The notes beneath the pieces were generated by a model. That model had not been told where the DNA came from. It worked only from the letters and a program-made list of their open reading frames with translations, and did not search any database. A program made the translations under genes and the position numbers. Source: Sporolactobacillus laevolacticus DSM 442 (lineage in GTDB: Bacteria > Bacillota > Bacilli > Bacillales > Sporolactobacillaceae). Taken from it: a stretch of DNA of 64,000 bases. This document shows positions 50,782 through 56,181 of the stretch, piece after piece (position 1 is the first letter of the stretch; the number at the start of each line of letters is the position of its first letter). The DNA lies in contig NZ_AWTC01000008.1 of assembly GCF_000497245.1 (NCBI RefSeq), positions 147,269 to 211,268 of the forward strand, read 5' to 3'.

Positions 50782-51408
50782 ACGAAAACTTCCTTCCTTA
50801 TTTAAAACTTGTTGAATAAATAATACATATTTTGAATCTCCGATCAGATTCTGCGCACGTGTTGTTTATCCATCCACAATATGGAAGATATTAACGCTCA
50901 TAAATTATTTAATCAATGAATGTAAGGGCTTTAGCTTATTAAACAGCTAAAATTCAATAAATTGCCAATAAAATGTCGTCAAAGTGTTGCTTTATGAACT
51001 GTTTCCGTCCTTGAAAGCGTCCAATGCTTAAACGAAATGTCATTTATTTATAGAATCCATCCGACTTCTAAAACCCCGCTTCTTCGAAGATTCGAAAAAC
51101 CAACGCTGGTCTCCCACAAAAGAAGGGCAACTTGAACATGAGAATTCTCTCATTATTTTCTTAGAAGTTTCTAATTAAGCTCTAATGATTAATTCAAAAG
51201 ATTATTTGTACACTTAGAGGGGTCTTATGACAGAACCTTTTGCGTTTGATTTGAAGAAGAAATTATAGATTAACGACAAAGTAGAGAATGTACGCGCTAA
51301 TTGATCCAAGAACAAGATCGCCTAAGTCACGAACGATCCGATTAATAATTAGGATACCTGTACAACTCAGACACTGGGTCAAAAATAACAGTCAAAGAAG
51401 AGGTATGG
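50782..51408. other. 627-bp intergenic region, no gene seen
   Basis: It contains the YagU gene promoter on the left and the leader of the large glycosyltransferase gene on the right. A 13-codon ORF with a good ribosome site and decayed downstream frame lies at 51227. I see no strong promoter, riboswitch or repeat. Confidence 0.4.
51227..51349 (+). pseudogene. Possible decayed ORF remnant
   Basis: AGAGGGG precedes ATG 51227, which encodes MTEPFAFDLKKKL before TAG at 51266. The same frame continues with coding-like but stop-interrupted sequence (INDKVENVRAN, SKNKIA, VTNDPINN). It could be the relic of a small gene or chance. No family is recognised. Confidence 0.2.
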
Positions 51409-54400
51409 ATGGATTATAAAATTAGTGTTATTGTGCCCGGTTATAATGTAGCAAGGTACATCAGACAATGTCTGGATTCCTTAGTGAATCAAAGTTTTAA
51501 ACAGATACAAGTCATTATGGTAGATGATGGTTCTCCGGACATGGAAACTGGTCGAATCATGGATGAATACGCTTCTAAATACACCAATTTCCAGGTTGTT
51601 CATCAGGAGAATAAAGGACTAGGTGCCGCTAGAAACACGGGTATCAAGTACGCTGAAGGAGACTATATCGCATTTGTTGACAGTGATGATTATCTCAGCC
51701 TTGATGCTTACGAAGTCATGTACCGGATGGCTGAACATACTCACTCCGATATTATTGTGGGAGGGGTCAACCGTTTCAATTCAAAGAAAAATATCAAATC
51801 CTGGCTGCATAAGAAAGCTATATTTGACACGCAAGAACGAACACATATTACGAAGAATCCCGAATTACTTTATGATACAACATCGTGGAATAAACTGTAT
51901 AAACGATCATTCTGGAATAAGCATCATCTTGCATTCCCTGAGGGTATGCTCTATGAAGATATCCCTGTAACGATTCCGGCCCATTTTCTGGCTGAATCTG
52001 TAGACATCATTGAACAAACGGTCTACTACTGGCGTATAAGGGAAGATGACATATCTATTACACAAGAAAAAAATAATATAAACAGCTTTAAAGACCGGAT
52101 GAAAGCACTGCATATGCTCAATGATTTCATGAGTGAGCACCATGTGTCTGAAGAAATGCGTAGAGCCAATCAAATTAAATATTTAATGGTCGATTTCTAT
52201 ATTCATCTTAGAGATCTCCAATTCGCCGATTCGGTTTATATTAATCAATTCCAGAAGTTATTAGCCGACGAGCTTTCAAAGGTAGATCCAGACCTGCTGA
52301 AAAGCATCCCGGCCCGCCAGGCACTCGCCTATCAATTCGTTCTCCAAAACACCATGGAAGACGTTATTGGCGTGATTAAGCTTAATAGAAGACACACTCT
52401 TAACGTTAAGCCTTATTGCGAAAACGGGCATTGGTATAAGAAATTCACGGTTTCGGAAGCTGCTGAAAAGCATCCCGTCTGCGTCGATGATTCCCTTGAG
52501 GCCGTCTCCCAAGTTCATAAAATGCAATGGAATGATGAAGGGGATTTAGAAATAACCGGTCATGCCTATATCGAAGGCATTGATTCAAGAAGAAAATCGC
52601 AAGTAAAAATTACAGCGACATTGGTAAACCTTGAAAATCAAAAACAACTCGAACTGCCAGTTTTGCTCACTAAAGATTCGGCGATTACAAGAAAATGGGG
52701 TACGGTTAAAGTCCATCCAATTAATCCATTGCACAGAGTGTACAACTATAATTGGTCATCATTTTCTCTTAAACTTCATGCCGATGAATGCTTGAATGTC
52801 TTAGATACTGGAAGATGGACCATTTATGTAACGGTTATCGCTCAGGGTGTTAAGAAAACAGTCCGCCTCGTAAATCCGCTCGCGCAAGGTACCGACGCAA
52901 GCTTCAGGATTCGACAAGACTTGGCTTGGACAATCAAACGTAATGGACGTTCAGAGCTGGCGATTGACGTTCATAAGCCGGATGTTCTAATCAAAGACGG
53001 CTATGTCAAAAATAATCAATTAATCATAATCGGTCAGACAAATAAAGACATTGCTGATCTCTGTTTAAGCTATTTCAACACAAAAACAAATGAATTATCT
53101 TGCTTTATTCCTGAAATACACTATGCTCGAAAAAACCAATTTGAATTAATTATTCCTAATGACAAAATGGGAGAAATGGTGTTTGATCAAACAGGTTGGC
53201 TGATCGGTTACCACCTTCACGGTGAGTCCGTACCTTATCCTGCTTATGCTGATTTCACAAATAGCAGTCAAATGTTTACCCTTCACAAACGGCATGTATG
53301 GCTTGAAAATTATGAAGGCTTGATTACTATTTTCGCATCAAAAGATCGGCATCCGATCGCCCAGTATCTGTCTCTTTCCGGAAGTACAATGGACATCGAG
53401 CTAAGCTTGCCAGACGAATTAAGTTCAATGCTGAAAAATTCGGACAAAAAACGTCTTATCTTTGAATCCCAGAACAACGGGGCTCCTGTTGTCGTTGATT
53501 TTCCTGACACACACGCATCAAATAATTATAGAATCCGGTTTGACTTTTTAGATCAAAACGGTGATTTCAAACTGTTTACTGCAGGCAAATGGAATGTATC
53601 GGTAGAAGTACTTGGAATAACTGATGAAGGAAAAAAATATGCTGTAAAACGTCCTGTTGTTTTTTCAAAAGTGCTTAGCGAAACCTCGAATTTCCGCTAT
53701 TCATTTAAAAAGAAGCTTTCATTCTCAGCAGAACATGGCATGCATGATGCGCTTAACTTTAGTACAAACATTTCATGGGGAATGGTTGACCAAACAACGA
53801 GAAGAAGAAAATTCGTTAAATGGTATCTCTATCCCCTAATGCGTCTTCTTCCGATTAAGAAAAACGTTGTTGTTTTCGAAAGCTTCTGGGGCAGATCTTT
53901 CAATGACAACCCGAGAGCCATCTACGATTATATGAGGCAGACCTATGGCAACAAGTACAAATACGTTTGGTTTTTGAATAACGAATACACGCCGGTCACA
54001 AGCCCCGCGATCGCCGTGCGAAAGAACAGTTGGCGTTACTTTTATTATCTTGCTCGGGGGAAATATTTTGTTGAAAATGCCAATTTCCCTAACTTTTACG
54101 TCAAACGTAAAGGCCAAATTGAAATGCAGACCTTGCACGGAACGTTCATGAAGACGATGGGGCTTGATGAAAAAGTTACGTTTAATACGAGAAGCAAGCA
54201 GGGAGCGCTGCTGAAACGTTCGGGACGATGGGATTACCTGATTTCGCCAAGTCCTTACATGACGGAAATCTCAGGGCGAGCATTCTTGTTTGAGCACAAG
54301 ATGCTCGAATGCGGATTCCCGCGAAATGATGTTCTGTATCTGAATAATAATCCTTCATCTATTCGCGACATCAAGAAAAAACTCGACTTGCCTGCGGACA

Positions 54401-56181
54401 AAAAGGTGATCCTCTATGCCCCAACGTTCCGGAGCAAAGAGACATTTGATTTGCACCTGAACTTTGATCAGTTACAAGACAAATTGGGGTCGGATTACAT
54501 TGTACTCCTTCGTCTCCACTATTTTATTTCAAGCCGGATTGATGTGGAGAACTATCGAGACTTTGTCTATGACGTTTCGTCTTACCCTGATATCCAAGAC
54601 TTGTATCTCATTTCGGACGTGATGATTACCGATTACTCATCGGTTATGTTTGACTATGCACATCTAAGGAGACCCATGTTGTTTTTCGCTTATGATCTTG
54701 ATTATTACCGAAATGATTTGCGCGGTATGTATTTGGATTACGAAGAAACTGTACCAGGACCAATCGTCCAAAATACTGAAAAGATCATCAATCATATAGT
54801 GAATCTGCCAGAGTCAACGGAATACGAACAAAAATATGAACAGTTCTATAACAAATTTTGCACGTTCGGACGTGGAGATTCTGCGAAAAAAGCGGCTGAG
54901 CAGCTACTTGATCCAATGATCGAATTACAGCCTGGTGAACCCTTTTTCAGGAATTTCCTGAAGAAAAAAACAAGTTTTATCTATCCTGCTCTCTTCCGAC
55001 GTATTGGAAAGCTGCCTCGCCGGAAAACCGTTTTATTTGAAAGCTTTTTTGGGCAGCAATATTCAGACAACCCAAGGGCAATCTATGAATACATGCGAGA
55101 CAACCATCCGGAATATCGCTTGATTTGGAATGCACAAAAGGGTTATGAAGATGTGTTTAAAAAAGAGAAAGTCCCCTATGTGACCAAATACTCATATCGC
55201 GGACTTTGGCAATGGGCACGGGCAAAGTATTGGGTGAATAATAGCAGGTGGCCATTATGGCTGCCTAAGCCACAGGGAACGGTTTATGTTCAAACTTGGC
55301 ACGGCACGCCTTTAAAAACACTTGGTGCAGATATTGAGCATATTACCATGCCTGGTATGACCCTTGAGAAATATCATAGCCAATTCACGAAAGAAGCAAG
55401 AAAATGGGATTATTGCGTTGCACCTAACGCTTATTCTTCAGAAATTTTTCATCGAGCATTTGAAGTTCAGGGAGAAATGATTAATTCCGGATATCCAAGA
55501 AACGACCTGCTCTATCAAAAAAACAGCCCGCAGGAAGTCAGTCATATTAAAACGAAGCTTAAAATTCCGCTCGAGAAAAAAGTTATTCTCTACGCACCAA
55601 CGTGGCGCGACAATGAATATAAGAAAATCGGCCACTATACCTTTGACCTGAAGCTGGACTTAAATCGAATGAGAGAAAAATTCGGGAAAAATACCGTCCT
55701 GCTGCTGAGATTGCACTACCTTATTGCAGAGCAAATTGATCTCAGTGATTTTGAAGATTTTGCGATTAATGTATCCGATTATGCGGATTTACGTGAACTC
55801 TATTTAGTCTCTGATTGCTTGATCACTGATTACTCATCTGTTTTCTTTGATTATGCCAATTTAAAAAGACCAATCGTTTTTTATGCCTATGATCTAGATG
55901 ATTATGCAAATGAAATTCGCGGTTTTTATTTTGATTTTGAAAAAGAAGCACCTGGCCCGATCGTCAAAGACATGGACCATTTGCTCCCTGCCGTGGAAGA
56001 GGCATTAGCTTATACGGGCAACAATCCATACCCTGAGTTCTACAATCGTTTCTGCCAATGGGAGGACGGTCACTCTTCAGAGAGAGTTGTGCAAGCAATG
56101 CTGGAAAATAGTAAATCCATTGAATCTGATCACGCATTAGTGACAACACAGACCGACGGGCAAACGCACTCAAAAGCTTAA
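51409..56181 (+). CDS. Giant GT2 glycosyltransferase with two tandem TagF-type glycerophosphotransferase domains
   Basis: The 1590-residue protein has three parts. Residues 1-~330 are a GT2 (GT-A) transferase: SVIVPGYNVARYIRQCLDSL, VDDGSPD, NKGLGAARNTG and the metal-binding FVDSDDYL. Residues ~340-810 are beta-rich without a family I recognise, probably spacer or carbohydrate-binding. Then come two copies of the CDP-glycerol glycerophosphotransferase domain (~818-1155 and ~1204-1565), each with VVFESFWG/VLFESFFG, a first His (QTLHGTFMKTMG in copy 1; QTWHGTPLKTLG in copy 2), LRLHY with the second His, and TDYSSVxFDYA. It should build a glycerol-phosphate or similar polymer, as in wall teichoic acid or a capsule. 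No TM segment is seen. ATG 51409 follows AAGAGG; a terminator follows. It stands alone. Confidence 0.85.
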   Translation: MDYKISVIVPGYNVARYIRQCLDSLVNQSFKQIQVIMVDDGSPDMETGRIMDEYASKYTNFQVVHQENKGLGAARNTGIKYAEGDYIAFVDSDDYLSLDAYEVMYRMAEHTHSDIIVGGVNRFNSKKNIKSWLHKKAIFDTQERTHITKNPELLYDTTSWNKLYKRSFWNKHHLAFPEGMLYEDIPVTIPAHFLAESVDIIEQTVYYWRIREDDISITQEKNNINSFKDRMKALHMLNDFMSEHHVSEEMRRANQIKYLMVDFYIHLRDLQFADSVYINQFQKLLADELSKVDPDLLKSIPARQALAYQFVLQNTMEDVIGVIKLNRRHTLNVKPYCENGHWYKKFTVSEAAEKHPVCVDDSLEAVSQVHKMQWNDEGDLEITGHAYIEGIDSRRKSQVKITATLVNLENQKQLELPVLLTKDSAITRKWGTVKVHPINPLHRVYNYNWSSFSLKLHADECLNVLDTGRWTIYVTVIAQGVKKTVRLVNPLAQGTDASFRIRQDLAWTIKRNGRSELAIDVHKPDVLIKDGYVKNNQLIIIGQTNKDIADLCLSYFNTKTNELSCFIPEIHYARKNQFELIIPNDKMGEMVFDQTGWLIGYHLHGESVPYPAYADFTNSSQMFTLHKRHVWLENYEGLITIFASKDRHPIAQYLSLSGSTMDIELSLPDELSSMLKNSDKKRLIFESQNNGAPVVVDFPDTHASNNYRIRFDFLDQNGDFKLFTAGKWNVSVEVLGITDEGKKYAVKRPVVFSKVLSETSNFRYSFKKKLSFSAEHGMHDALNFSTNISWGMVDQTTRRRKFVKWYLYPLMRLLPIKKNVVVFESFWGRSFNDNPRAIYDYMRQTYGNKYKYVWFLNNEYTPVTSPAIAVRKNSWRYFYYLARGKYFVENANFPNFYVKRKGQIEMQTLHGTFMKTMGLDEKVTFNTRSKQGALLKRSGRWDYLISPSPYMTEISGRAFLFEHKMLECGFPRNDVLYLNNNPSSIRDIKKKLDLPADKKVILYAPTFRSKETFDLHLNFDQLQDKLGSDYIVLLRLHYFISSRIDVENYRDFVYDVSSYPDIQDLYLISDVMITDYSSVMFDYAHLRRPMLFFAYDLDYYRNDLRGMYLDYEETVPGPIVQNTEKIINHIVNLPESTEYEQKYEQFYNKFCTFGRGDSAKKAAEQLLDPMIELQPGEPFFRNFLKKKTSFIYPALFRRIGKLPRRKTVLFESFFGQQYSDNPRAIYEYMRDNHPEYRLIWNAQKGYEDVFKKEKVPYVTKYSYRGLWQWARAKYWVNNSRWPLWLPKPQGTVYVQTWHGTPLKTLGADIEHITMPGMTLEKYHSQFTKEARKWDYCVAPNAYSSEIFHRAFEVQGEMINSGYPRNDLLYQKNSPQEVSHIKTKLKIPLEKKVILYAPTWRDNEYKKIGHYTFDLKLDLNRMREKFGKNTVLLLRLHYLIAEQIDLSDFEDFAINVSDYADLRELYLVSDCLITDYSSVFFDYANLKRPIVFYAYDLDDYANEIRGFYFDFEKEAPGPIVKDMDHLLPAVEEALAYTGNNPYPEFYNRFCQWEDGHSSERVVQAMLENSKSIESDHALVTTQTDGQTHSKA

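Follow-up and report, generated by a model that had tools for sequence, protein, structure and literature searches.

A candidate multi-enzyme wall teichoic acid polymerase with one GT2 and two TagF-type domains in Sporolactobacillus laevolacticus

Polymerases that join sugar transfer to hexose- or polyol-phosphate transfer in one chain are known from Gram-negative capsule loci. Cps1B, CslB, Cps3D and Cps7D each combine a glycosyltransferase with one TagF-like domain carrying two histidines, most of them with a TPR domain in addition, and single-domain mutants of such bifunctional enzymes complement in trans (PMC5974469; this and the other papers are cited from excerpts). TarS is a beta-glycosyltransferase of wall teichoic acid; its C-terminal immunoglobulin-like domains trimerise and probably aid polymer binding (PMC5156392). 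It has a glycosyltransferase A (GT-A) domain, then a linker, then a beta domain, as does RmlT; both are side-chain enzymes that stand alone and have no TagF domain. In B. subtilis, GgaA and GgaB, the enzymes of the minor teichoic acid, are described as polymerising a second polymer on the TagO/TagA/TagB linkage unit (PMC11841062). The poly(glycerol-phosphate) wall polymer of L. plantarum requires TagF1 and TagF2 together, each encoded by its own gene (402 and 941 residues), and that work did not settle what TagF1 itself does (PMC3511166). Here we describe a gene of S. laevolacticus DSM 442 that unites related parts in one reading frame. It lies in a stretch of 64,000 nucleotides (contig NZ_AWTC01000008.1, positions 147,269 to 211,268), referred to below as the window, and codes for a glycosyltransferase family 2 (GT2) domain, a beta-rich region and two TagF-type domains, copy 1 and copy 2.

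We propose that the product of this gene combines several enzymes into one polymerase and that it makes a second wall teichoic acid, of glycosylated glycerol-phosphate, on a lipid-linked tag primer, a reading that we consider plausible, if somewhat short of probable. Its parts are laid out as follows (positions in the window).

51409..56181, + strand: whole gene, 1590 residues, in the order GT2, beta region, TagF copy 1, TagF copy 2 (translation, Pfam, orthologues)
51400..51403, + strand: GAGG, a possible ribosome-binding site 5 bases 5' of the ATG (sequence)
51409..52398, + strand: GT2 (GT-A fold) glycosyltransferase domain, residues 1-330 (Pfam, fold match, TarS residue alignment)
52399..52974, + strand: linker and first part of the beta region, residues 331-522, TarS/RmlT-like (model, fold match)
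52975..53793, + strand: remaining beta region, residues 523-795, with a predicted beta structure (model)
53800..53862, + strand: basic stretch immediately N-terminal of TagF copy 1, residues 798-818 (sequence, charge)
53824..54912, + strand: TagF copy 1, residues 806-1168, catalytic-type H910 and H1037, motif LHGTF (profile and alignment)
54958..55029, + strand: basic, amphipathic stretch N-terminal of TagF copy 2, residues 1184-1207 (charge analysis)
54964..56109, + strand: TagF copy 2, residues 1186-1567, H1298 and H1436, motif WHGTP, TarF-like (profile and alignment)

The open reading frame (51409-56181, + strand) translates into 1590 residues with 0 internal stops. A Pfam scan placed Glycos_transf_2 at residues 6-167 (124.6 bits vs. 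a cut-off of 23.3) and Glyphos_transf (PF04464) in two stretches (777 bits in total); scored per copy in a profile search of the genome, PF04464 gave 375.7 and 419.8 bits vs. a cut-off of 22.1. A GT2 domain, a beta region of ~470 residues and two complete TagF-type domains in one 1590-codon gene had been described in a first-pass annotation made from the sequence, and translation and Pfam bear this out. Compared with the capsule polymerases, the protein has two TagF domains rather than one, TarS-like beta domains and Gram-positive hosts.

The N-terminal half was modelled (residues 1-815) from an alignment of 18 sequences, with a mean predicted local distance difference test score (pLDDT) of 85.7 and a predicted template modelling score (pTM) of 0.84. 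In a Foldseek search full-length S. aureus TarS came top, followed by L. monocytogenes RmlT (template modelling scores by target length of 0.49 and 0.47, whole-chain root-mean-square deviations of 18.1 and 13.2 A, respectively), and TarP was also among the structure matches of the GT2 part. Deviations of this size are as for modelled domains that sit at differing angles. With a second aligner, TarS 1-349 superposed on the model with 341 residues at 4.3 A (Z 31.9) and RmlT with 444 residues, up to model residue 522, at 8.8 A (Z 31.3); full-length TarS aligned up to model residue 524, at 11.2 A. As modelled, the GT2 domain together with the beginning of the beta region has the fold of the wall teichoic acid glycosyltransferases TarS and RmlT. 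The structure alignments cover mainly residues 1-522; residues 523-795 are modelled as beta structure outside the matched part, and a sequence search with the beta region alone against the PDB returned 0 matches. The beta region, earlier thought to belong to no recognisable family, therefore has a first part that, together with GT2, matches TarS and RmlT structures, while residues 523-795 were not matched separately and may still have a known fold. R75, D91, D93, D94, E183 and D184 of the GT2 domain align with TarS R75, D91, D93, D94, E177 and D178, whose mutation abolished or strongly cut activity (PMC5156392); no confident counterpart of TarS R206, H210 and S212 was found in this alignment.

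The two TagF copies share 41% identity over 367 columns. For both, S. epidermidis TagF (PDB 3l7i), which has one phosphotransferase domain with WHGTP where copy 1 reads LHGTF, was the top phmmer hit among solved structures, and H910/H1037 (copy 1) and H1298/H1436 (copy 2) align with its H444/H584. The catalytic-type histidines are thus kept in both copies, as the first-pass annotation had stated, and a check for the loss of essential residues found both of them in place in each. In a model of residues 796-1590 from 14 sequences (pLDDT 77.7), the copy-1 half superposed on S. epidermidis TagF with 373 residues at 2.9 A (Z 41); the fold aligner reports the best alignment per chain only, and this one is that of copy 1. 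Because the pTM was 0.52, the mutual placement of the two TagF domains in this model is unreliable. Among the 14 rows of the orthologue alignment, copy 1 keeps both histidines, HGT and DYSS in all, and the arginine of R(PRND) in 13, with a lysine once. Catalytic-type residues are by alignment kept in all three enzyme domains, which supports the proposed polymerase. The reference structure gave an observation of its own: residues 3-180 of 3l7i, the N-terminal part of S. epidermidis TagF, match the four-domain GT2 (E 1.5e-13), so that, going by sequence, a GT2-TagF pairing may exist even in the best-studied TagF.

The motif difference between the copies, first noticed in the single S. laevolacticus gene, turned out to be fixed. 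With every different domain sequence counted once, copy 1 reads [LF]HGTF in 21/21 distinct four-domain proteins (20 LHGTF, 1 FHGTF) and copy 2 reads WHGTP in all 21. A survey of homologues for the architecture thus recovered the four-domain layout in 21 distinct proteins, and its conservation in so many means that it is no accident. In Bacillota proteins with the GT2-beta-TagF1 layout, called two-part here, the motif is LHGTF, LHGTP or MHGTP; those of actinobacterial loci mostly have WHGTM (a broken Apilactobacillus micheneri gene, described below, was put under this class). Other single TagF-type domains read WHGTP in 52 cases; a further 28 are without such a motif, none of these in two-part proteins. 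Two proteins of 902 and 904 residues from Bacillus-type genomes (L214 and L215), presumably GgaB-like to judge from size and layout, also combine GT2 and TagF-like domains. They differ in reading QHG, in giving no DYSS match and in having one TagF-like domain. QHG in place of WHG is tied to hexose-phosphate transferases of the GgaB and Cps1B type (PMC11666461), and it is found in neither copy here (LHG and WHG). Since its [LF]HGTF is neither of the WHGTP nor of the QHG type, copy 1 fits neither described class. The two changed residues of its catalytic motif (LHGTF for WHGTP) could mean that copy 1 serves chiefly in structure or regulation, leaving catalysis to GT2 and copy 2. We regard this as highly improbable, given the retention of both histidines, HGT and DYSS (14/14) and of R(PRND) (13/14), and the survival of copy 1 in proteins without copy 2.

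The four-domain frame (1570-1620 residues) is present in 8/15 Sporolactobacillus genomes, S. laevolacticus included, at 57-100% identity, which rules out an annotation or assembly artefact. The orthologues are those of S. kofuensis (76% identity), S. spathodeae (68%), S. vineae (66%), S. putidus (62%), Sporolactobacillus sp. THM19-2 (61%) and S. shoreae (57%). Outside the genus, a single four-domain open reading frame was found in Apilactobacillus, Philodulcilactobacillus myokoensis and Enterococcus canis, and the combination looks conserved in several bacteria of the lactic-acid type. In overlapping samples of wider groups, scored on the two best candidates per genome, the frame occurred in 7/397 genomes of the order, all Sporolactobacillus and S. 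laevolacticus among them. Matches at E <= 1e-150 were found in 3/398 genomes of the class (S. laevolacticus itself, one two-part protein and one adjacent-gene pair), and the phylum sample had one matching genome of 398, S. laevolacticus itself. Candidates for a tandem TagF-TagF arrangement elsewhere were discarded: matches spanning both copies were separate adjacent genes in G207, G121, G317, G363 and G754 and, where resolved, in the Exiguobacterium loci L094-L101 and L114. Query-spanning matches of the actinobacterial (Streptomyces) type were likewise rejected, 14 of 47 loci holding two neighbouring GT2-TagF genes, 21 one and 12 none; the simple frame caller is poor in GC-rich DNA, and the long single frames at a few of these loci (L077, L118) were not trusted. 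Actinobacterial gene pairs of this kind (e.g. L067, L083, L112, L115) encode GT2-TagF proteins of ~743-766 and 1187-1202 residues, reading HHGTP and WHGTM, and are a two-gene counterpart of the four-domain protein.

We placed the two copies in trees of TagF-type domains. A tree of 80 domains was built without near-identical loci and without the majority of the rows from Streptomyces and Exiguobacterium; long branches may meet in it (L102_12783, L102_6109, Exiguobacterium TagB-type rows). For a second tree of 96 domains, 17 of the 80 rows were removed (TagB-type, long-branch, near-duplicate, the Streptomyces 743-residue class and the Streptomyces two-part L126_8001) and 33 added. In the 96-domain tree, the 16 copy-2 rows form one clade (100/100) inside a 52-row TarF/TagF group (98/90), and the 16 copy-1 rows form another together with one S. 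shoreae two-part protein (100/98), within a 28-row clade that also holds other Bacillota two-part proteins (100/99). Both copies split alike, Sporolactobacillus vs. E. canis and the lactobacilli, in both trees. The pattern could have arisen by a single fusion, later descent or transfer, and a single loss of copy 2. The first-pass annotation had suggested that the copies may differ in acceptor or donor, as a primase and a polymerase do. The copies do differ in a fixed way; neither, however, groups with the 10-row TagB-type group of the 80-domain tree (a label that rests on size and, for L035, on TarB as the best model, under its cut-off), and the pairing of a primase with a polymerase was rejected.

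Altered forms of the gene were seen in several genomes. The second S. shoreae gene (L063:7980-11519, the same as L043:10122-13661) has no TagF copy 2 and carries the GT2 changes R75W, D91N, D93S and D184E. In A. micheneri (L065:7986-12317) the four-domain gene is broken into a frame of ~1443 residues and one of 272 residues with the remaining copy 2, the sister species being intact. A protein of 1599 residues in G047 (L129:1483-6282), in which a weak beta-region match (10-375) precedes GT2, the beta region and one TagF domain with the motif LHGTP, is another extended layout.

The genomic setting places the gene with wall genes in some hosts. The four-domain gene lies inside the tag locus in two Sporolactobacillus (G017, G022) and in E. 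canis, where it directly follows genes whose best models are TarB, TarA and TarF, all under the equivalog cut-offs. In two relatives (G014, G015) it comes directly after dltD; DltA, DltB and DltD of G014 and DltB of G015 were checked by profile, the other two dlt genes of G015 by resemblance. It is isolated in S. laevolacticus and three further Sporolactobacillus (G010, G020, G013), so that the earlier statement that the gene stands alone holds for these four and not for the other hosts just listed. All 11 Apilactobacillus/Philodulcilactobacillus genomes have PF04464 genes of TagB/TarF size on the same contig, ~11-16 kb away. Nine proteins of ~410 residues, eight from Apilactobacillus/Philodulcilactobacillus and one from E. 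canis, all read WHGTP. Immediately upstream of the two-part gene stands a TarF-like gene in G004 and G005 (that of G004 scored 466 bits with the TarF model) and a TagF-type gene of 400 residues in Enterococcus (L102); copy 2 looks like such a gene fused on. Separately, in three lactobacilli a TagF-domain protein of 744-767 residues with WHGTP is encoded directly upstream of the four-domain gene (L062:7896-10199, L068:3558-5792, L069:7029-9269). Genes of the DUF6270 family stand directly downstream of it in two Sporolactobacillus with tag-locus placement (L039:7414-9585, L038:13587-14918), their product being a possible partner or modifying enzyme.

Primer and donor would be supplied by other genes of the hosts. 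The glycerol-3-phosphate cytidylyltransferase TagD scored over its cut-off in 20/20 hosts tested. In the 3.59 Mb S. laevolacticus genome, the four-domain gene is on contig C8 and the remaining PF04464 genes are on another contig. Contig C2 carries TagD (TIGR01518, over cut-off), a protein of 437 residues with TarB as top model (206 bits, under the cut-off of 500) and one of 750 residues with TarF as top model (485.6 bits, under the cut-off of 550). The 1590-residue protein itself reaches 765.6 bits on the TarF equivalog NF041712 (cut-off 550), but as a sum over two stretches; with the cut-off passed, automatic pipelines may label it plain TarF. Stand-alone PF04464 genes of TagF-like and TagB-like size, as well as a WecG/TagA-family gene, are present in 15/15 Sporolactobacillus genomes. 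Priming therefore probably comes from elsewhere, and the first-pass idea that the protein could make a whole polymer by itself finds no support here. Each of the 15 Sporolactobacillus genomes has one full-length match to PF01128, which we take to be the number expected for IspD, and E. canis has one as well. No full-length IspD/TarI-type gene (PF01128) was found in any of the 11 Apilactobacillus/Philodulcilactobacillus hosts. Their partial matches, in all 11, cover positions 4 to ~127 of 221 at 21-28 bits (five just above the Pfam cut-off) and fall in frames of 460-478 residues, presumably GlmU. For want of a full-length gene of this type, the polyol donor that these hosts are known to be able to make is cytidine diphosphate (CDP)-glycerol. 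A ribitol polymer was considered and rejected on these counts, one IspD-like gene per Sporolactobacillus genome and no full-length one in the 11 lactobacilli.

Domain order, aligned catalytic residues, predicted folds, the one-fusion gene tree, TagD in the hosts and wall-gene linkage in some relatives are computed; from them we infer a cycle with its donors, acceptors, priming, export and product. The ordinary tag enzymes would make a lipid-linked primer, which the four-domain enzyme would extend. Copy 2, being TarF-like, would transfer glycerol-phosphate from CDP-glycerol onto a glycerol end. GT2 would then add a sugar from a nucleotide sugar, probably beta-linked, as inverting GT-A enzymes make beta linkages, and copy 1, the variant TagF, would place a further polyol-phosphate, in all likelihood glycerol-phosphate, on that sugar. 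This would produce a stretch of poly(glycosyl-glycerol-phosphate) of a type II-like kind. The beta domains may retain the chain, drive oligomerisation of the enzyme, or both, on the model of TarS, with export and anchoring left to other proteins. Both the alternation of GT2 with copy 1 and the glycerol-phosphate extension by copy 2 are proposed by analogy, with the bifunctional capsule polymerases and with TarF, respectively.

Several observations weigh against this proposal. No recognisable wall-polymer gene is found among the ten neighbours scanned in S. laevolacticus, which encode GNAT, PTS EIIC, an ABC-2 pair, an aldo/keto reductase, DUF1440, SelO, a serine dehydratase-like protein, NrdD and an iron-sulphur activase-like protein. 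The second S. shoreae protein keeps the catalytic residues of TagF copy 1 despite its GT2 losses; as copy 1 persists there beside a degraded GT2, it need not alternate with a GT2 of its own. Furthermore, TarS and RmlT, the closest structures to the GT2 part, add side chains. The protein could accordingly be a decorator joined to a polymerase, with both copies extending poly(glycerol-phosphate) and a TarS-like GT2 hanging side-chain sugars on it during synthesis. The matches of the GT2 part to TarS, TarP and RmlT, all side-chain enzymes, speak for this, as do the separate GT2 plus beta proteins of 526-537 residues in the tag loci of five relatives (L038, L039, L043, L045, L046) and the position after dltD in two. 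It accounts neither for the invariant [LF]HGTF that sets copy 1 apart nor for the existence of a GT2-beta-TagF1 unit without copy 2, and we think it unlikely, if a serious contender.

The remaining points against the glycerol-phosphate polymerase concern the donor of copy 1. Eleven donor-site residues are common to Cps3D and TagF (Cps3D F391, H479, G480, T481, P482, R542, A573, R607, S647, S648 and D652; PMC11666461). Copy 2 aligns with all of them, copy 1 with all but the proline. In TagF the corresponding P447 flanks a small glycerol pocket, and this position is a conserved Pro in glycerol-phosphate and Gly in ribitol-phosphate transferases (PMC10299916). Copy 1 lacks the proline of the glycerol-phosphate enzymes, having Phe there and Leu or Phe in place of the Trp; judged by WHG plus Pro three residues past the base histidine, copy 2 is of the glycerol-phosphate type and copy 1 is not. 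Cps3D F391 corresponds to F826 in copy 1 and F1213 in copy 2. Across 14 copy-1 orthologues position 826 is F in 4, L in 5 and Y in 5, a variability that also counts against glycerol-phosphate transfer by copy 1; position 1213 is F in 13/13 rows there, and a second alignment shows a single Y. Finally, the GT-A/TagF-like layout seen here went with hexose-phosphate polymers among the capsule enzymes, polyol-phosphate polymers going with TagF-like/GT-B (PMC5974469). Copy 1 might then use another donor, a different polyol or a sugar-phosphate, to give a mixed polymer. The Phe found in 21/21 copy-1 sequences at the pocket position (PMC10299916), the drift at position 826 and the hexose-phosphate precedent of the capsule polymerases (PMC5974469) all favour such a switch. 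It is made rather unlikely by the nine further TagF/Cps3D donor-site residues that copy 1 retains, by the QHG rather than LHG of the known sugar-phosphate type (PMC11666461), by the remoteness of the GgaB-like proteins (46-51 bits vs. the copy-1 profile) and by the lack of a full-length TarI-type gene in 11/11 lactobacilli hosts.

The reading of a glycosylated glycerol-phosphate polymerase can be carried one step further. Copy 1 would then represent a new donor/acceptor class of the TagF family, marked by [LF]HGTF, and the four-domain chain would be a complete machine, in one polypeptide, for elongating a type II-like wall teichoic acid with a sugar-containing backbone in Gram-positive bacteria. 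This extended form is possible, though on the doubtful side.

The surroundings of the gene added little. Its GC content is 40.5% vs. 42.5% for the window, Rfam and tRNA scans of the window gave 0 matches, and a scan for promoters and terminators gave a signal no higher than in shuffled sequence.

Every part of the protein is from a known family, and the four-part combination was not found described: our literature search, mostly without subscription papers, turned up no GT2-TagF-TagF protein and nothing on teichoic acid genes in either Sporolactobacillus or Apilactobacillus. How type II wall teichoic acids, whose polyol-phosphate backbone contains a sugar, are synthesised was described in 2018 as little known, with any part of TagF-like polymerases in it left open (PMC5974469). 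The four-domain protein and its two-part relatives offer concrete, cloneable candidates for this synthesis in genera such as Sporolactobacillus and Apilactobacillus, which are not known as pathogens. The Pro to Phe change in copy 1 provides a single-residue handle on donor choice in the TagF family, and the fusion suggests which activities work together.

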